Source: an uncultured Syntrophobacterales bacterium
GTDB lineage: Bacteria > Desulfobacterota > Syntrophia > Syntrophales > UBA5619
Assembly (NCBI GenBank): GCA_903928915.1
Contig: CAIYSL010000073.1
Location: forward strand, 1-49,217
Direction: 5' to 3'
DNA: 49,217 nt
Shown here: piece after piece, positions 12,247-20,794 of the stretch
How the letters are laid out: every line of letters begins with the position of its first letter
Numbering within the stretch: position 1 is the first letter of the stretch
The notes under the pieces: model-generated
Told to the model about the DNA's origin: nothing
The model's input: only the letters and a program-made list of their open reading frames with translations
The model's database searches: none
Program-made: the position numbers and the translations under genes

Positions 12247-13593
12247 ATGGATCTCTTCGATCAGGACGACGACAGGAACGACAACCGGCCCCTGGCCGAG
12301 CGGATGCGGCCGCGGACCCTCGACGAGTACGTGGGACAGCGGCACCTCCTCGGTAGCGAGAGCCTCCTCCGGAGGGCCGTCGCGGAGGACCGCCTCTTCT
12401 CCGTTATCTTCTGGGGCCCCCCCGGATCGGGGAAGACGACGCTTGCCCGCATCATGGCCCGGGAGACGAAATCCCACTTCATCAGCTTTTCCGCGGTCCT
12501 CTCCGGGGTGAAGGAGATCAGGGCGGTCGTCGAGGAGGCCACCGGGCAGTGGCGCGACCAGCGGCGCAAGACGGTCCTGTTCGTCGACGAGATCCACCGG
12601 TTCAACAAGGCCCAGCAGGACGCCTTCCTTCCCCACGTGGAAAGCGGGCTGATCACCCTGATCGGCGCCACCACGGAGAACCCCTCCTTCGAGGTGATCG
12701 CCCCGCTCCTCTCGCGGATGCGGGTCCTGACGCTCCAGCCCTTCACGGAAGAGGATCTGGCCCGGATCGTCCGGAGCGCACTTGCCGACCGGGAACGGGG
12801 ATTGGGGGAGCTCGGCGTCGAGATCGAACCGGAGGCGGTACTGCACATCGTCCGGTCCGCCGACGGAGATGCCCGCTCGGCGCTCAACAGCCTCGAAGCG
12901 GCCGCATCGCTCGCGGTCAGGGCCGGGGAAACCGTGCGCCTGATCACCCGGCCGCTCGCCGAGGAGGCGATCCAGCGGAAGGCGCTCCGGTATGACAAGG
13001 ACGGCGAGGAACACTACAACCTCATCTCCGCCCTCCACAAGAGTCTCCGGGGCAGCGATCCCGATGCGGCGCTCTACTGGCTCGGCCGGATGCTGACGGC
13101 CGGAGAGGAGCCGCTGTACCTGGCACGGCGACTGGTGCGGTTTGCCTCCGAGGATATCGGGAATGCCGATCCGCGCGCCCTCGGTCTGGCAGTCGACGCC
13201 CTGCAGGCCTTTCATTTCCTCGGTTCGCCCGAGGGAGAACTGGCCCTGGCCCAGGCCGTCGTCTACCTCGCCACCGCTCCGAAGAGCAACGCCGTGTACG
13301 CAGGCTTCGGCCGGGTCCGCGCGACGATCGAGGCCACGGGGACCCTCCCCGTTCCGCTGCCGATCCGCAACGCCCCGACGAAGCTGATGCAGTCGCTGGA
13401 GTACGGCGAGGGATACCGCTATGCCCACGATTATGCCGACGCCTATGCTCCGCAGGAGTACCTTCCCGAGGAACTCCGGGGCGCGGAGCACCGCTTTTAC
13501 CGGCCGACCGACAGGGGGTACGAGAAGACGATCGGCGAACGGATGGAGTACTGGCGGAAACTCCGCGCTGCCGACCCGGGGAAAGAGACCTGA
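12247..13593 (+). CDS. rarA: Replication-associated recombination protein A (RarA/MgsA AAA+ ATPase)
   Basis: Clamp-loader-like AAA+ ATPase acting at stalled replication forks. Walker A GPPGSGKTT at 57-65, Walker B VLFVDEIHR at 110-117, sensor 1 GATTENPSFE, then the C-terminal tetramerisation domain including EDIGNADPRAL and the conserved ending region with YRYAHDY. 448 aa is the family norm. ATG 12247 has GGAGGGGAG upstream. Identification is firm. Confidence 0.93.
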   Translation: MDLFDQDDDRNDNRPLAERMRPRTLDEYVGQRHLLGSESLLRRAVAEDRLFSVIFWGPPGSGKTTLARIMARETKSHFISFSAVLSGVKEIRAVVEEATGQWRDQRRKTVLFVDEIHRFNKAQQDAFLPHVESGLITLIGATTENPSFEVIAPLLSRMRVLTLQPFTEEDLARIVRSALADRERGLGELGVEIEPEAVLHIVRSADGDARSALNSLEAAASLAVRAGETVRLITRPLAEEAIQRKALRYDKDGEEHYNLISALHKSLRGSDPDAALYWLGRMLTAGEEPLYLARRLVRFASEDIGNADPRALGLAVDALQAFHFLGSPEGELALAQAVVYLATAPKSNAVYAGFGRVRATIEATGTLPVPLPIRNAPTKLMQSLEYGEGYRYAHDYADAYAPQEYLPEELRGAEHRFYRPTDRGYEKTIGERMEYWRKLRAADPGKET

Positions 13594-13733
13594 GGGCAGA
13601 CTGCTGTCCTGCCCTTTCCCGCCGCAGCGGCAATAACGGGGAGGACGGGCCGTGCGGGATGCAGACCCGGTCGCGGCCGGTCCCAGGGGGCGGCGGCCGG
13701 CGGGGAGGGGCCGGGAGGGATGGGCATCGCCGG

Positions 13734-13769
13734 AAAGAAAAAGGGGAGGCTCCGAAGAACCCCCCCTTT
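13734..13769 (-). terminator. Intrinsic terminator with UUCG tetraloop (end of predicted small RNA)
   Basis: On the minus strand AAAGGGGGGGTTC pairs with GAGCCTCCCCTTT: 13 bp including two G-T wobbles, closed by a TTCG tetraloop and followed by TTCTTT. On the plus strand no T-run follows, so it terminates leftward transcription. No protein gene on the minus strand leads into it. Confidence 0.8.
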
Positions 13770-13872
13770 CCCCAGGAGTTGGGAATTGAGAAACCGTTGG
13801 ACTTTGCTAGGTCGTTTTACGTCGGCTGATCGTGCCCGCGTTCAGTCAACAAACTCACTAACTCGTTTCCGA
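13734..13872 (-). ncRNA. Predicted sigma-54-dependent small RNA (about 140 nt)
   Basis: The interval between a near-consensus sigma-54 promoter (13881-13899) and a strong terminator (13734-13769), both on the minus strand. The expected 5' end is near 13872. No start codon with a ribosome site and a plausible peptide lies within it. A GAAAC near the 5' end can pair with GTTTC near 13790, closing a multi-branch fold. A small hairpin just before the terminator (CCC-AACTCCT-GGG) exposes ACTCCT, complementary to Shine-Dalgarno sequences. The divergent neighbour is an NtrC-type two-component system, its likely activator. CrcZ/CbrAB and Qrr/LuxO are established parallels; the assignment here is inference. 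Confidence 0.6.
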
Positions 13873-13880
13873 TAGGCAGT

Positions 13881-13899
13881 CTTGCACCTACCGTGCCAA
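13881..13899 (-). promoter_or_regulatory. Sigma-54 (-24/-12) promoter
   Basis: Minus strand TTGGCACG-GTAG-GTGCA against consensus TTGGCACG-N4-TTGCA: one mismatch, with the invariant GG (13897-13896) and GC (13885-13884) exactly 10 nt apart. Transcription would start near 13872 and run left. Confidence 0.75.
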
Positions 13900-13919
13900 T
13901 TGCCGGGCATAGTATGCAA

Positions 13920-13991
13920 CACACTGAAATTATATGAATAGTGTGAACATAAACGATCCGCATATCCCGACGTCGGCCGGAATAGTCCGGC
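13920..13991. promoter_or_regulatory. Cluster of palindromes upstream of the sigma-54 promoter (candidate enhancer sites)
   Basis: Three inverted repeats: CACACT-N14-AGTGTG (13920-13945), the perfect palindrome CCGACGTCGG (13967-13976), and GCCGGA-ATAG-TCCGGC (13976-13991). Relative to the predicted start they centre near -60, -100 and -111, the zone where NtrC-family activators bind. Confidence 0.5.
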
Positions 13992-14056
13992 AATATTTGT
14001 CGCGCCGTTGAGCGGTGAAAGAAAAAACGCAAGTCTTATTTGGTGGTTAAACAACA

Positions 14057-14338: not shown

Positions 14339-16156
14339 ATGAATCCTGAACGGGACATCATCTGGCAGCACACCACCCCCCACTATAACCGCTCTTTCCT
14401 CCAGCCGCTGGCGGTGGCCCTGGTCTGTGCCGTGCTCATCGGCCTCATCCTGACGATGGGCCTCATCGACCTGCGGCGGAGCGAGCAGACCCTCAGCGGT
14501 TTCATGGAAGCCCAGGGGATGCGCATCGTCGGGGTGATCGAGCGGCTCGCCGAGGAAAACATCAAGACGATGATTCAGGCATCGCAGAAGGCGGGCGGTA
14601 GCTCCTTTGTGCCGCTGACCGAACAGGTCATCTCGCCGCAGATCTTCCTGACCGACAAGATCGTCGCCATGGCCCGCGAGATCGATCACCACTGGAAGCG
14701 GGAACATCTGAGCAGGGCCTACATCCGCCAGTATGCCGAGGAGAAGAATCTCTGGCTGCTGGCGGTTCTCAATGCCTGGGGACAGGTCATCTTCATCAAC
14801 CGCAGCCTCCCGGAAGATGCGCCCCGGCCTGCCCGCAAATCCCTGACCAGGGAGCGCGGCCCGGCGAACGCCGCCGAATTGCTGGCCATCCTCAATGCCC
14901 TCAACCGGAGCAGGAAGATCGGGTTCATCGCCCTGAGCCGCGCGGACGGGAGCGGGACGATCGTGATCGGCCTGGACCAGGCGAGCGCGCGGTACTGGGG
15001 GACACGGGTCTCCGTGGAAAAGGCGATCGAGAAGCTCGGGGAGGGGCAGGGACAGGGGCTCGTCTACCTCACCGTCCGGGACACAAAGGGGAAGTCGCTC
15101 GGGAGCACCGGCCCGCTGCCCGCCGAAGGGGGGGGGGAGACCCCCTTGGTCGAGAGGATCCTCGCCGGGACCGCGCGGATCGAAAGCCGGAAGGTGATCC
15201 ACGACGGAAAGAGCGTTCTCGAGATCGTCGCCCCGCTGATGATGAGTGGCCAGATCGCCGGGGTGATCCGGCTGGGGCTGGAGCGGGGGAACACCGACCG
15301 GATCATCGATGAAAACCGGCGGAACATGTTTGTGTTCCTGGCCTTTGTCGTTCTGATCGCGCTGCTGTCGATGTGGCTGTTGTACCACGACCAGAACCGG
15401 CATCTCGCCGGGATCATCAAGATGGAGCGGCAGCTCGAGAAAGCGGAGCGGCTCTCGTCGCTCGGCCAGCTCGCCGCGGGCGTGGCCCACGAGATCCGCA
15501 ACCCGCTCAACGCGATCAGCATGGCCAGCCAGCGGCTGAAGCGGGAGTGCAGCCCCGCCGATGAGGAGAGGAGGAAGGAGTTCGAGACCCTGGCCGGCGT
15601 CATCCGCGACGAGATCCGCCGCCTCAACGGGATCATCGAGGAATTTCTCACCTTCTCGAAGAGCCGCCGCCTCGACCTCCGCGACTGCCCCGTTCAGGAG
15701 GTCCTCCAGAAGATCATCCACCTGATTTCCGCCGAAGCGGCCAGCCGGGGGGTTGCGCTCCGGACCGACTGGGAGCAGAAACCGATCGTCATCCCGATGG
15801 ATATGGACAAGCTCCAGCAGGCCTTTCTGAATTTCATCAAGAACGCGATGGAGTCGATCGCCGGCGAGGGCGCGGTGACCCTGAGCGTCCGCAGACTGGA
15901 GGAGTACGGGCAGGTGAGCGTCCGCATCAGCGATACGGGCTGCGGGATGACGACCGAGGAGGTGGAGCGGATCTTCAACCCCGAGTACACGACGAAGGAG
16001 AAGGGGCTGGGCCTCGGGCTGCCCCAGTCGCACGAGATCATCCGCGGGCATGGGGGGGAGATCCGCGTCCTGAGCAGGAAGGGGGAGGGAACGACCATCG
16101 AGATCCTGCTGCCCGCCGCGCCGCGCGGCAACGGTAAGGGGGCGAAGACGGAATGA
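14339..16156 (+). CDS. Membrane sensor histidine kinase
   Basis: 605-aa sensor kinase. A transmembrane helix at about 22-43, a periplasmic sensor domain at about 45-325 (unclassified, two-helix-hairpin/Cache-like) and a second helix at about 328-348. HisKA follows with the phospho-acceptor His 384 in AAGVAHEIRNPLNA. The HATPase domain ends the protein (DTGCGMT, then GLGLGLPQSHEIIRGHGG). Start ATG 14339 has GGGGAAAGG upstream. Its stop overlaps the response regulator start (ATGA), so the two are a cognate pair. The signal is unknown. It resembles ZraS/HydH-type kinases paired with sigma-54 activators. Confidence 0.88.
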   Translation: MNPERDIIWQHTTPHYNRSFLQPLAVALVCAVLIGLILTMGLIDLRRSEQTLSGFMEAQGMRIVGVIERLAEENIKTMIQASQKAGGSSFVPLTEQVISPQIFLTDKIVAMAREIDHHWKREHLSRAYIRQYAEEKNLWLLAVLNAWGQVIFINRSLPEDAPRPARKSLTRERGPANAAELLAILNALNRSRKIGFIALSRADGSGTIVIGLDQASARYWGTRVSVEKAIEKLGEGQGQGLVYLTVRDTKGKSLGSTGPLPAEGGGETPLVERILAGTARIESRKVIHDGKSVLEIVAPLMMSGQIAGVIRLGLERGNTDRIIDENRRNMFVFLAFVVLIALLSMWLLYHDQNRHLAGIIKMERQLEKAERLSSLGQLAAGVAHEIRNPLNAISMASQRLKRECSPADEERRKEFETLAGVIRDEIRRLNGIIEEFLTFSKSRRLDLRDCPVQEVLQKIIHLISAEAASRGVALRTDWEQKPIVIPMDMDKLQQAFLNFIKNAMESIAGEGAVTLSVRRLEEYGQVSVRISDTGCGMTTEEVERIFNPEYTTKEKGLGLGLPQSHEIIRGHGGEIRVLSRKGEGTTIEILLPAAPRGNGKGAKTE

Positions 16157-17523
16157 AGAAGCTCAGCATCCTCGTGGTGGAAGACGGCCAATCGCAGCGC
16201 GAAATGCTCCGCGATTTCCTCCGGAAGGAGGGGCACAGCGTCGGCGAGGCCGAGAACGGCGATCGCGCGCTCCAGCGGGTCCGCGAGGGGCATTATGACC
16301 TGATCCTCCTCGACTACAAGATGCCGGGGATGGACGGGATGCAGGTGCTGCAGGCCGTCAAGGGGATCAACCCGGAGATCGACATCGTCATCATCACCGC
16401 CTACGGAACGATCGAGACGGCCGTGGATGCGATGAAGGCGGGGGCCCTGGATTACATCACCAAGCCGGTGGAGTTCGAGGAGCTCCTGCTGCTCGTGGAC
16501 CGCGTTGCGGAACGGCGGACGCTGCTGAAGGAGAACGAGATCCTCCGGGAGCAGCTGGGCGAACAGGGGGTGACCACCGACCGGATCATCTACCGGAGTC
16601 CGAAGATGGCCGGCCTGCTCAACCTGGCGGGGCGGGTGGCGCCGTCCCGGACCACGGTCCTGCTCCAGGGGGAGAGCGGGACGGGAAAGGAGCTCCTGGC
16701 CCGGCTGATCCATCACCTGAGCCCGCGGTCCAGCCGGCCGATCATCGCGGTGAACTGCGGCGCGCTCAACGAAAACCTACTGGAGAGCGAACTGTTCGGC
16801 CACGAGAAGGGGGCCTTCACGGGGGCAACGGCCCGGAGGATCGGCCGGTTCGAGGAGGCGGACGGGGGGACCCTCTTCCTGGACGAGATCGGCGAGCTGT
16901 CGCCGGCCGTCCAGGTCAAACTCCTCCGTTTTCTCCAGGAGCACGAGTTCCAGCGCCTCGGCGGGAACCAGACCCTGCGCAGCGATGTCCGGGTGATCAG
17001 CGCGACCAACCGGAATCTGGAGCAGCGGGTGAAGGAGGGGGCGTTCCGGGAGGATCTCTTCTACCGGCTGAACGTCGTGGTGATGTCCCTCCCTCCGCTT
17101 AGGGAGCGGAAAGAGGACATCCTGCCGCTGATTGACCACTTCCTGCGGCGGTACGCCGCGGAAAACGACAAGGCGGTCGAGGGGCTCAGCCGCGAGGCCC
17201 AGGACGTGCTGCTAAAATACGACTACCCCGGGAACGTCCGCGAGCTGGAAAACATCATCGAACGGGCGGTCGTCATCGCCCGGGAGGAGGTCATCTCCGT
17301 CGAGGACCTCCCCTTCCGCGGGGCGCCGGAGGAGCGGGCGGAAGACCGGGCTGCCGGGGAAGGACTGCTGCGCGGTTCCGTCGAGGAGCTCGAACGAAAG
17401 CTGATCGTCGAGGCGCTGGAAAAGGCCGGCGACCACCAGACCCGCGCCGCCGAGCTGCTCGGGATCAGCGAACGGATGCTCCGCTACAAGCTGAAGAAGT
17501 ACGGCCTGAAGACGGCGGTATGA
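16153..17523 (+). CDS. Sigma-54-dependent response regulator (NtrC/ZraR family)
   Basis: 456 aa. Receiver domain at 1-120 with phospho-acceptor Asp 54 (LILLDYKMPGMD) and switch Lys (ITKPVEF). AAA+ domain at about 145-375 with Walker A GESGTGKE, the sigma-54 contact loop GAFTGA at 220-225 and DEIGELS. A Fis-type helix-turn-helix ends the protein (QTRAAELLGISERMLRYKLKKYG). All residues needed for sigma-54 activation are intact. It is co-translated with the upstream kinase. The only sigma-54 promoter I found nearby drives the predicted small RNA at 13734-13872, making that its prime candidate target. Confidence 0.92.
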   Translation: MKKLSILVVEDGQSQREMLRDFLRKEGHSVGEAENGDRALQRVREGHYDLILLDYKMPGMDGMQVLQAVKGINPEIDIVIITAYGTIETAVDAMKAGALDYITKPVEFEELLLLVDRVAERRTLLKENEILREQLGEQGVTTDRIIYRSPKMAGLLNLAGRVAPSRTTVLLQGESGTGKELLARLIHHLSPRSSRPIIAVNCGALNENLLESELFGHEKGAFTGATARRIGRFEEADGGTLFLDEIGELSPAVQVKLLRFLQEHEFQRLGGNQTLRSDVRVISATNRNLEQRVKEGAFREDLFYRLNVVVMSLPPLRERKEDILPLIDHFLRRYAAENDKAVEGLSREAQDVLLKYDYPGNVRELENIIERAVVIAREEVISVEDLPFRGAPEERAEDRAAGEGLLRGSVEELERKLIVEALEKAGDHQTRAAELLGISERMLRYKLKKYGLKTAV

Positions 17524-17596: not shown

Positions 17597-18076
17597 TCAG
17601 GGGCCGATTCGTTTCCGCAGGGCGGAGAGCCGGATGAAATGCTCCTTTTCCTCGGCGATGATCCGGTCGATTGCCGCGCATTCGCCCGCGGGCAGCATTT
17701 CCCGCATCTCCCGGTAGTAGTGGATCGAATCGAGTTCCCGCTGGATGGCGAAATCCAGGGCCGCTGCCTCGTTCCGAAGCTTGGCCAGCTCGGCGGCGAA
17801 GGCCTCGGCGGTGAAGACGAGATGGTTGTCCACGTAATCGTGGAGGTAGGCGGCGTACTCACCGTCGTATCCCTCGGGGGGGAGATTCCGGCTCATCCCC
17901 GCGAGGATCGCCGCAAAGGTCTGCCGATGCTTCACCTCCTCTTCCGCCAACCGCTGGAAGAGTGCCTTCACCTCTTCCTTCCCGGCCAGTTGCACCGCGT
18001 AGCGGTAAAAGTTCGCTCCGTTCTCTTCGATGCGGACCGCCACCTCGACGATGTCGCTTGCTTCAAAGACTGCCAT
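17597..18076 (-). CDS. Ferritin-like/rubrerythrin-type diiron protein
   Basis: 159-aa four-helix-bundle protein. The N-terminal VRIEENGANFYRYAV and EEEVKHRQTF supply the first Glu and the ExxH pair. The C-terminal half has LDFAIQRELDSIHYYREM and EEKEHFIRL, the second set. There is no rubredoxin tail. Start ATG 18076 is chosen because a perfect AGGAGGTTGAGA site precedes it; an in-frame TTG lies six bases further up. Expected roles in this family are peroxide reduction or iron handling in the cytoplasm of anaerobes. Convergent with the response regulator, downstream of corA on the same strand. Confidence 0.82.
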   Translation of the reverse strand: MAVFEASDIVEVAVRIEENGANFYRYAVQLAGKEEVKALFQRLAEEEVKHRQTFAAILAGMSRNLPPEGYDGEYAAYLHDYVDNHLVFTAEAFAAELAKLRNEAAALDFAIQRELDSIHYYREMREMLPAGECAAIDRIIAEEKEHFIRLSALRKRIGP

Positions 18077-18137
18077 TCTCAACCTCCTGATTATCGCTTT
18101 TCACCGACCGACGCTCCGCCGGAGCGGGCGATCGTCG

Positions 18138-19196
18138 TTACAGCCATTTTTTTCTCCTGAATACGATCAGCATGCCGCAGGCGACGGCCAGCATCACACC
18201 CCAGAGGGCGAAGTACCCCCAGCGCCACTCCAGCTCCGGCATGTACCGGAAATTCATCCCGTAGACCCCTGCCAGGAAGGTGAGCGGCATGAACAGGGTC
18301 GCGATGACGGTGAGGACCTTCATGACCTCGTTCAGCCGGTTGCTGAGCGACGAGAGGTAGATGTCCAGCATGCCCGAGAGCATCTCTCGGTAGGTCTCGA
18401 TCGTGTCGATCACCTGGACGGCGTGGTCGGTGATGTCGCGGAAGTAGAGGGCCGACTGTCCGTGGATGAGCGGCGACTCCGACCGGTCGAGGTTGCCGAG
18501 CAATTCGCGCAGCGGCCAGGCCGACTTGCGAAGCAGGAGCATCTCCCGCTTGAGCGTCTGGATGGACCGCAGGGTGGTCGGCGACGGCCGACCGATCAGC
18601 GCCGTTTCGAGCCCCTCGATCCTCTCGCCGATCCTGTCCAGGACGGTGAAGTAGCTGTCCACGATCACGTCGATCAGGGCGTGGGCGAGGTGATCCGTTC
18701 CCCCCTTCCGCAGGCGGCCCTTCTCGACGCGGAGCCTCTCCCGGATGGGTTCGAACAGTCTCCCCTCCCGCTCCCGGAGGGAGACGAGCCAGGTGCGGCC
18801 GAACACGATGCTGACCTGCTCGGGGATCAGAGCGCCGCCGGCGTCCTGATGGAAGACCTTGAGGACGATGTAGTGATACTCCCCGTGATCCTCGCTCTTC
18901 GGCCGCTGTTCCGTGTTGAGGATGTCTTCCAGGGTGAGCGGATGGAGGCCGAATGCCTTTCCGAGCTGTTCGAGGTGTCGAACCTCGTGCAGCCCGTCGA
19001 TGTGGATCCAGGTGACTGCCTCCCCCGCGGGGACGGCGACCCCCTCCAGGGTTTCGACCTCCCGTTCCTGGAAGCCGGTATCGTCGTACACGCAGAGGGT
19101 GATACGGGTCGTTGCGCTGTGCTGCTCGCCGATATGGATCAGGGAACCGGGCGGGAGGCCGGTCTTGGCCGATCTTCGTTTCACGTCGCCGGGCAT
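18138..19196 (-). CDS. corA: Magnesium/cobalt transporter CorA
   Basis: 352-aa CorA channel: a large cytoplasmic N-terminal domain, then two C-terminal helices with the signature YGMNF in the connecting loop after the first helix and a basic tail (FRRKKWL). Length matches Thermotoga CorA. Start ATG 19196 (MPGDVKRRSAK) is preferred because GCGGAGG lies 7 nt upstream; the frame stays open above it. It forms a homopentamer for Mg2+ (or Co2+/Ni2+) uptake. The ferritin-like gene follows about 60 nt downstream. Confidence 0.9.
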   Translation of the reverse strand: MPGDVKRRSAKTGLPPGSLIHIGEQHSATTRITLCVYDDTGFQEREVETLEGVAVPAGEAVTWIHIDGLHEVRHLEQLGKAFGLHPLTLEDILNTEQRPKSEDHGEYHYIVLKVFHQDAGGALIPEQVSIVFGRTWLVSLREREGRLFEPIRERLRVEKGRLRKGGTDHLAHALIDVIVDSYFTVLDRIGERIEGLETALIGRPSPTTLRSIQTLKREMLLLRKSAWPLRELLGNLDRSESPLIHGQSALYFRDITDHAVQVIDTIETYREMLSGMLDIYLSSLSNRLNEVMKVLTVIATLFMPLTFLAGVYGMNFRYMPELEWRWGYFALWGVMLAVACGMLIVFRRKKWL

Positions 19197-19402
19197 GGTG
19201 CCTGCCTCCGCACTGTGCATCTCCTGTCGGTTTCCTGATCCCCGGGGGGAACGGCGGTACTTTAGCCCATGGCCCCCGGAAATACAATGAAAAAGTCGGC
19301 TGCGGACCACCCGCCCTCCGCGCTTTTCCCTTGACAAGCGGCGGAGAATCACGGAGAAAAACGATCAGCGAAGCCCAGCGTGTTCGCATGACCGGAGGTC
19401 CG

Positions 19403-20794
19403 ATGCGCTCTATCCTTGCAGTGACCGAAGACCGGACGGCGGCGGAGATCATCCGGAGCGCCTTTCGCCGCCCCTTCCAGGTGGATGCGGTGGCGACCGT
19501 CCGGGACGGCCGCCACCTCTCCCGGAAGCGGCGGTACGAATTCCTGTTCGTCGATCTTGACCTGATCGACGCCCGGGAACGCGAGAGCGCCGAAACGCTG
19601 CGCAGCCTCAGGCAGGCCTTCCCGTCGGCCGAGATCATCGTCATGACCCCGTCCGAACGGATCCACGACGCGGTCGAGGCGGTGAAAGAGGGGGCCGCGA
19701 ATTACGTGACCTATCCTCTTAACGCGGACGAGGTGCGGTACGTCGTCGAGAGCATCCACGAGAGCATCCGGGCCCAGTCCGAGCTCGACTACCTCCGGGA
19801 CCGCTTCTGGCAGTCCGATTCGCTCGAGGTCGTCCAGACCAGGAACCCCGCCATGCGGGAGGTGTTCGAACAGGTCCGTCTGGTGGCGCCGACCAAGAGC
19901 ACCGTCCTGCTCACCGGCGAGACGGGCACCGGCAAAGGGATCCTGGCAAAGCTGATCCATCGACACAGCAACCGGCGCGAGGTGCAGTTCATCGGCGTCC
20001 ACTGCGGCGCCATCCCCGACACGCTCCTCGAAAGCGAACTCTTCGGGCATGAGAAGGGGGCCTTCACCGGCGCCGTCCGGCGCAAGCTGGGCAAGTTCGA
20101 ACTGGCCAGCGGGGGGACCATCTTCCTCGACGAGATCGGGACCATCACCCCGGCCGCTCAGATCAAGCTCCTGCAGGTCATCCAGGAGCGGACCTTTCAG
20201 CGGGTCGGGGGGGAGGCGCTCATCGAGACCGACGTGCGGATCATCGCCGCATCCAACCGGGATCTCGGCGAACTGGTGGAGAAGGACCTCTTCCGGAACG
20301 ACCTCTACTACCGCCTGAACGTCTTTCCGATCAACCTGCCGCCGCTCAGGGAGCGGCGCGAGGACATTCCCCAGCTCACCGAGCTTTTCCTGAAGCAGAC
20401 GAACCGCTTCAACCACCGGGGGATCCACTACATCCATCCCCGGGTGATGGAGGCCTTCGGGCGGTACCCCTGGCCGGGCAACATCCGCGAATTGCAGAAC
20501 CTCGTGGAGCGGGCCTGCATCCTGGAAACCTCCTCGACCCTGACGCCGGGAAGCTTTCCCGCCGAACTGTTCGCCGACAGCGCTGGGGCGGCGCCGATTC
20601 CGGCCGAACCGGGCTTCACCCTGGCGGAGGTGCGCCGCAGCGCTGTCGAGGATGCGGAGAAGCGCTACCTGCGTGAGGTCCTTGCCCGGAACGCCGGGAA
20701 GATCAACCGGACGGCCGAGACCTCCGGCATCACGGTCCGCCAGCTCAACAAATTGATGAACAGGTACGGCATGCGGAAGGAAGAGTTCCGGTGA
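19403..20794 (+). CDS. Sigma-54-dependent regulator with a degenerate receiver domain
   Basis: 463 aa. The receiver-like domain 1-120 keeps an Asp at the phosphorylation position (D51, FLFVDLDLI), but the usual acidic pair is only TED, and the conserved Lys-Pro is Tyr-Pro (VTYPLN), so phosphorylation switching is doubtful. The AAA+ domain has GETGTGKG (the usual Lys/Glu after Walker A differs), the intact GAFTGA at 219-224 and DEIGTIT. The tail has a Fis-like helix-turn-helix. Start ATG 19403 follows CCGGAGG. No kinase gene is adjacent, so this is an orphan activator. Confidence 0.87.
   Translation: MRSILAVTEDRTAAEIIRSAFRRPFQVDAVATVRDGRHLSRKRRYEFLFVDLDLIDARERESAETLRSLRQAFPSAEIIVMTPSERIHDAVEAVKEGAANYVTYPLNADEVRYVVESIHESIRAQSELDYLRDRFWQSDSLEVVQTRNPAMREVFEQVRLVAPTKSTVLLTGETGTGKGILAKLIHRHSNRREVQFIGVHCGAIPDTLLESELFGHEKGAFTGAVRRKLGKFELASGGTIFLDEIGTITPAAQIKLLQVIQERTFQRVGGEALIETDVRIIAASNRDLGELVEKDLFRNDLYYRLNVFPINLPPLRERREDIPQLTELFLKQTNRFNHRGIHYIHPRVMEAFGRYPWPGNIRELQNLVERACILETSSTLTPGSFPAELFADSAGAAPIPAEPGFTLAEVRRSAVEDAEKRYLREVLARNAGKINRTAETSGITVRQLNKLMNRYGMRKEEFR

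Follow-up and report, generated by a model that had tools for sequence, protein, structure and literature searches.

In enterobacteria, the response regulator ZraR controls the divergent sigma-54 promoters of zraSR and zraP (PMC4987338), and at a CpxP/ZraP-family locus the small RNA CpxQ is among the outputs of an envelope-stress two-component system (PMC4817254). Another regulator, GlrR, is listed with GlmY and GlmZ and has the site TGTC-N10-GACA (PMC4987338). In Desulfovibrio, Dv_sRNA2 is a target of the response regulator DVU0679 and lies near the regulator's own gene, downstream of it, with orthologues reported in Desulfovibrio, Desulfotomaculum and Symbiobacterium (PMC3333781).

The window analyzed here (the whole stretch of 49,217 nucleotides from an uncultured bacterium of the order Syntrophales) carries on its minus strand a predicted small RNA locus, flanked by the end of a rarA-type gene (13593) and the start of a plus-strand kinase gene (14339). 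Its features are as follows.

12247-13593, plus strand: rarA/mgsA-type AAA+ ATPase gene, convergent neighbor of the RNA and not a functional part
13872-13734, minus strand: predicted small RNA gene of about 139 nt, its start at 13872 predicted 12 nt past the -12 C
13769-13734, minus strand: rho-independent terminator, AAAGGGGGGGTTC-TTCG-GAGCCTCCCCTTT plus a T-rich tail, with a UUCG loop
13774-13779, minus strand: ACTCCT, a putative anti-Shine-Dalgarno segment, within the loop of TTCCC-AACTCCT-GGGGAA
13820-13851, minus strand: stem-loop 1, TGTTGACTGAACG-CGGGCA-CGATCAGCCGACG, the conserved core with the GGGCA loop
13898-13883, minus strand: predicted sigma-54 promoter TGGCACGGTAGGTGCA, with -24 TGGCAC and -12 GTGCA
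13917-13929, minus strand: IHF-like site TTTCAGTGTGTTG, with two mismatches to WATCAANNNNTTR and weak in the window
13989-14002, minus strand: activator-like site CGACAAATATTGCC (CGACA-N4-TTGCC), an imperfect palindrome CGRCA-N4/5-TGYCG
14339-16156, plus strand: membrane sensor histidine kinase, AtoS/ZraS-like, with Pfam HisKA and HATPase_c
16153-17523, plus strand: NtrC-family response regulator, ZraR/AtoC-like, with GAFTGA intact

A first, sequence-only reading of the window had likened this arrangement to CbrAB-CrcZ. The likeness holds in that CrcZ is also a sigma-54 RNA under a two-component regulator, but the closest functional parallels are rather ZraSR/ZraP and CpxQ. Like ZraSR-ZraP, the window has a divergent sigma-54 promoter beside an NtrC-type pair; unlike it, the divergent gene in the window's clade is a predicted RNA and not a ZraP-family protein, the pair falls below the ZraR/ZraS equivalog cut-offs, and no sigma-54 box toward the kinase was found at the locus. 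With CpxQ the locus shares a small RNA as the output of a putative envelope-stress pair at a zraP/cpxP-type locus. However, CpxQ is derived from the 3' end of cpxP mRNA and works with Hfq, whereas the window RNA would be a separate gene behind a sigma-54 promoter of its own, without a chaperone reading frame, in genomes without detectable Hfq. The Qrr RNAs of Vibrio, under LuxO, are likewise sigma-54 RNAs controlled by an NtrC-type regulator, occur in several copies in some genomes and contain a base-pairing segment, but here the regulator belongs to another subfamily and no Hfq was found. CrcZ (CbrAB) and GlmY/GlmZ (GlrR) are similar as sigma-54 RNAs under two-component regulators, but the activator site here is unlike that of GlrR; as with Qrr, there is no Rfam match. 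Dv_sRNA2, compared by description only, offers a response regulator acting on a nearby small RNA in the same phylum, but it lies downstream of the regulator gene, whereas the window RNA is divergent from the pair.

The candidate RNA gene, its fold and its distribution

Judged by comparison with related genomes, the minus strand from 13872 to 13734 is very probably a real RNA gene. In blastn searches of 60 relatives with positions 13720-14010 as the query, E values reached down to 3.6e-18, the matching part was the predicted transcript, and the core of stem-loop 1 was 91-95% identical to that of relatives. Alignment (MAFFT) of 15 family loci recovered the sigma-54 box in all of them, together with a conserved core (TGTTGACTGAACGCGGGCACGATCAGCCGAC), a ACTCCTGAA segment, the terminator and an upstream block (CGACAATTCTTGCC). 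Across 58 loci, both sides of stem-loop 1 changed in 7 of 9 pairs, with 94% of cells paired, and 6 of 7 counted pairs of the terminator helix had changes on both sides. In a MAFFT alignment of the 58 sequences (A3), 85% of cells are paired, both sides have changed in 18 of the 22 pairs, and the covariation score is 0.354 (compared to 0.224 after shuffling and no more than 0.163 in slid controls). We read these changes as compensatory, that is, as covariation of RNA helices. The UUCG-loop terminator folds as first described; a simple terminator scan of the window did not list it. Folding z-scores range from about -2 to -4.8 in relatives and reach -1.9 in the window copy, whose fold is less distinctive than in most relatives, and this counts against our preferred explanation.

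Single genomes have short reading frames at this place, and the locus could instead encode a small peptide. No reading frame is kept among the relatives (73 loci), however, and the compensatory helix changes also argue against a coding role, which we regard as exceedingly unlikely. In the window's list of open reading frames, none between the end of rarA (13593) and the promoter is convincing, in agreement with the earlier claim that no gene lies between promoter and terminator. That no named RNA is known here likewise agrees with Rfam, which gave no match at the gathering score for the window and none in a permissive search for the relatives. Literature searches found no paper describing this RNA or small RNAs in Syntrophales or Syntrophus, and no titles pointing to ZraR control of an RNA.

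A first covariance model of the transcript (R1) already detected the RNA throughout Syntrophales. A second covariance model (R2), made from 58 loci, finds the RNA in 99 of 155 Syntrophales genomes across 13 families, the weakest matches including false or diverged ones, and in the 395 genomes of the phylum it gave no credible case beyond Syntrophales. We regard it as what appears to be a new RNA family that spans the order. The weak R2 matches beyond Syntrophales (G182, G231 and G397) look like plain terminators without box or site and were rejected, as were L134 and L181, both false matches. Since many genomes are draft bins, absence and copy number of the RNA are unsure; the sample holds one genome per species, and these are not independent. 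Second copies of the RNA occur in G014, G015, G019, G026 (in tandem) and G054, most with the same site and box; G054, of the genus Syntrophus, we take to be probably Syntrophus aciditrophicus, and its two loci lie at 1925217-1925340 and 813867-813994. Second copies without a kinase-regulator pair were found at L112, L170, L172, L175 and L176. The first of these (G068:C62:26852-26960) is an extra type A copy that has a sigma-54 box but lacks both a clear upstream site and an adjacent kinase pair.

Promoter, upstream site and the adjacent regulator

As first read, the promoter at 13898-13883 departs from TGGCACN5TTGCW by one mismatch and has exact GG-N10-GC spacing; a window-wide scan returned it as the sole match with one mismatch or fewer. 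Comparison shows the box TGGCAYN6TGC to be exact in 67 of 73 loci and to have one mismatch in the other 6, where dinucleotide shuffles would give about 1 locus in 73 within one mismatch. The covariance model R1 describes the transcript alone, without promoter columns. Among the 73 loci scored, the start of the 15 family loci was set partly from the box, and for this reason the independent evidence for the box is that of the other 58. The window's genome encodes rpoN (sigma-54).

The site at 13989-14002, about 104 bases from the box in the window, is a conserved block in the alignment of the 15 family loci. In 68 of 73 loci it is found with 0-2 mismatches to CGACANTTNTTGCC, compared to 0.55 of 73 expected, and in most of the 73 it lies 100-105 bases before the box. 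The enhancer-like palindromes of the sequence-only reading (13976-13991 and about 13919-13945) are present in the window but are not conserved in relatives, in which the conserved site is that at 13989-14002. The search for covariation that had been proposed therein found helices, promoter, terminator and kinase-regulator pair kept across relatives, but not the palindromes. The IHF-like site, weak in the window, is exact in 17 of 73 loci (0.35 expected). Taken as one pattern, site plus box occurs once in this 4.3-Mb genome, at this locus, and one to two times each in 63 of 154 genomes (reversed controls 0 in both cases); because the pattern is so rare per genome, the regulator looks dedicated. 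From sequence, the upstream site is probably the binding site of the adjacent response regulator.

Of 14 family loci, 13 have the kinase and regulator genes divergent from the RNA, and in the 14th the contig ends first; order-wide comparison places the pair about 260-540 bases from the RNA in nearly all loci with sequence available (exceptions are L131, with a kinase match 3.1 kb away, and the second copies that lack the pair). In relatives, rarA is usually convergent behind the RNA terminator. The initial proposal of a sigma-54-dependent small RNA divergent from an NtrC-type pair is therefore supported by the conserved transcript, covariation, terminator, promoter and synteny. NCBIfam scores of the kinase are 226 bits for AtoS and 200 of 479 bits for ZraS, both below cut-offs, and the regulator reaches 464 of 760 bits for ZraR, below the equivalog cut-off, as it is for AtoC. 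The regulator matches the ZraR structure 1ojl (E 1.3e-100), and its GAFTGA motif is intact, as had been noted. Because the pair scores below the ZraS/ZraR and AtoS/AtoC cut-offs, zinc or envelope sensing is proposed by analogy of output, which also counts against our preferred explanation. Farther along, the window has a second NtrC-type regulator (19112-20794), with rubrerythrin-like and CorA-like genes nearby (17597-18082 and 18138-19352); at L041, a second regulator, rubrerythrin-like and CorA-like genes likewise lie beyond the pair.

An alternative hypothesis is that the RNA is made but answers to another sigma-54 activator, for example the one at 19112-20794, as such proteins can act on distant genes and the window holds a second one. 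Against this, the upstream site accompanies the related pair both inside and outside the order and is rare in each genome, and we consider control from elsewhere improbable.

Promoters of the same type were also seen in other settings. In the genus Syntrophus, a further site-plus-box promoter (L425 in G113, L426 in G038, L427 in G114) drives a leader that looks like an RNA, contains ACGGGCATGTC, has a C/U-rich tail and lies directly upstream of a polytopic membrane protein (MAKYFGILSFQ...). In other deltaproteobacterial bins (L193, L217, L223, L227 and L268), site and box occur without a nearby kinase pair and are followed after the box by a conserved non-coding stretch, CGAGGCTnTTCATGCCTCACGAGGGTTCnGGGGTTACCCCTTCCTCCCCTGA, possibly a separate RNA family. 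Family f6 has a second promoter of this type away from the kinase pair (L377, L378, L379 and L382), leading into a stretch that resembles an RNA and contains AACGATCTCCTCCAGGGAGGCGACCC as well as two terminator-like hairpins. L381 (G120:C35) has two sigma-54-like boxes in near-tandem repeats (TGGCACAAATTATGCTAATAGGGG ... TGGCACGTGTTATGCGGATAGGGG), with one activator-like site upstream.

Possible modes of action

Our main reading, to which we give a probability of about 0.72, is that the RNA gene is the regulatory output of a ZraSR-like envelope-stress system and probably blocks ribosome binding without Hfq, in place of zraP. Beyond the comparisons, we infer binding by the regulator, an envelope signal, antisense action and the existence of targets. 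The membrane kinase (14339-16156) would sense a periplasmic signal and phosphorylate the NtrC-family regulator (16153-17523), which would bind CGACAAATATTGCC (13989-14002), possibly with IHF bending the DNA, and drive sigma-54 RNA polymerase from 13898-13883 to give an RNA of about 140 nt ending at 13734. In this transcript the 5' hairpin would expose the GGGCA loop, and a C/U-rich anti-Shine-Dalgarno segment would sit before the terminator; through this segment the RNA would probably keep ribosomes from binding to target mRNAs, with no need of Hfq.

The ACTCCT loop singled out at the start is part of a C/U-rich segment that nearly all relatives share: a C/U motif stands right before the terminator in 56 of 58 loci, compared to 2% in shuffles. 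Segments of the ACTCCT type are complementary to Shine-Dalgarno sequences, and CTCCT is present in 45 of the 58 loci, some lineages having CUCUUC instead of CUCCU. This varying identity, and a mean unpaired probability of 0.65 for the segment over the 58 loci, count against our explanation. Shine-Dalgarno sequences complementary to CACUCCUCCUGA were found in 12 of 154 genomes (reversed control 1), and we claim no target. Hfq (PF17209) was not found in six Syntrophales genomes (G000, G010, G035, G054, G099 and G150), and 5 of 14 control genomes were positive.

The main rival keeps the same sigma-54 RNA and lets it titrate a protein through the GGGCA loop, as a sponge like CrcZ or CsrB, with no pairing to ribosome sites. 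No other part of the RNA is as conserved or as exposed as this loop, which has a mean unpaired probability of 0.85 and exceeds the anti-Shine-Dalgarno segment in both respects; with no Hfq found, an antisense RNA would moreover lack its usual chaperone. However, each RNA has one GGGCA loop and known sponge RNAs carry repeats, and RNA types B to E, which were classed by eye, share the anti-Shine-Dalgarno-like feature, whereas GGGCA is clear only in type D among them (which also shares AGTAAACTCCAAAA with type A). Titration is thus the less likely mode, though one to be taken seriously, and blocking of ribosome sites the most likely one.

zraP outside the order and the divergent promoter within it

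Named genomes were scanned for site plus box, and among the matches listed outside the order (Desulforhabdus, Desulfosoma, Desulfobacteraceae, Syntrophorhabdus and others), these elements precede a small secreted protein, mostly with a divergent pair whose regulators are 62-70% identical where complete enough. All 9 proteins tested match PF13801 and PF07813, and ZraP is the best NCBIfam and PDB match where there is any, below the equivalog cut-off. Comparison thus places a ZraP/CpxP/Spy-like, periplasmic protein outside Syntrophales at the position taken by the RNA within the order, and because the RNA occupies the place of zraP in related bacteria, an RNA output seems to have replaced the chaperone.

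Within Syntrophales, 39 of 45 searched handles, chosen mainly as lacking the RNA, match the kinase (G004 only distantly). Relatives with the same kinase and without the RNA sequence mostly keep a sigma-54 box and another terminator-ended, RNA-like stretch, as the sequence-only reading would have it. Families f2, f6, f13, f15 and f18 mostly have the box, often along with the site, facing away from the kinase gene or from an operon of zraP and kinase, and behind the box come other stretches that end in a terminator, the majority of them containing CUCCUCC-type segments. In G032, what the box drives is a second zraP, and no strict box was found in L383, L389, L390, L391, L400, L401 and L405. Some lineages of the order retain zraP within the kinase operon, and their divergent RNA is a different one. 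In the kinase tree, every type A RNA locus belongs to a single clade of 34 (support 100/100), which includes one row of unknown output; zraP-keeping lineages fall outside it, and in the window's clade only the RNA is left at the locus.

A plausible history would lead from a divergent zraP, through zraP in the operon with a divergent RNA, to the RNA alone. The fuller proposal, that the ZraP output was exchanged for an Hfq-independent sigma-54 anti-Shine-Dalgarno RNA via intermediates with both, with unrelated-looking RNAs A-E at the same promoter, we rate at even odds. Since most Syntrophales encode a PF13801 protein elsewhere in the genome, zraP function may not be lost. The position shared with zraP would also suit a transcript that is merely the untranslated remnant of a lost zraP, its promoter a relic. 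Conservation and covariation across 13 families, and additional copies at other places behind promoters of this kind, make such a remnant very improbable, and the RNA has no similarity to zraP 3' regions. A derivation of the RNA from these regions was rejected, as R2 finds no match there.

The locus thus points to a new, order-wide RNA family in syntrophic bacteria, for which activator, promoter and mode of action are predicted. It yields a concrete and cheap prediction for a cultured organism, namely two copies of the RNA in G054, presumably S. aciditrophicus. If the main reading is true, the family would offer a setting in which to study antisense RNAs that act independently of Hfq, and a natural example of a stress system that has traded its protein effector for an RNA under one promoter.
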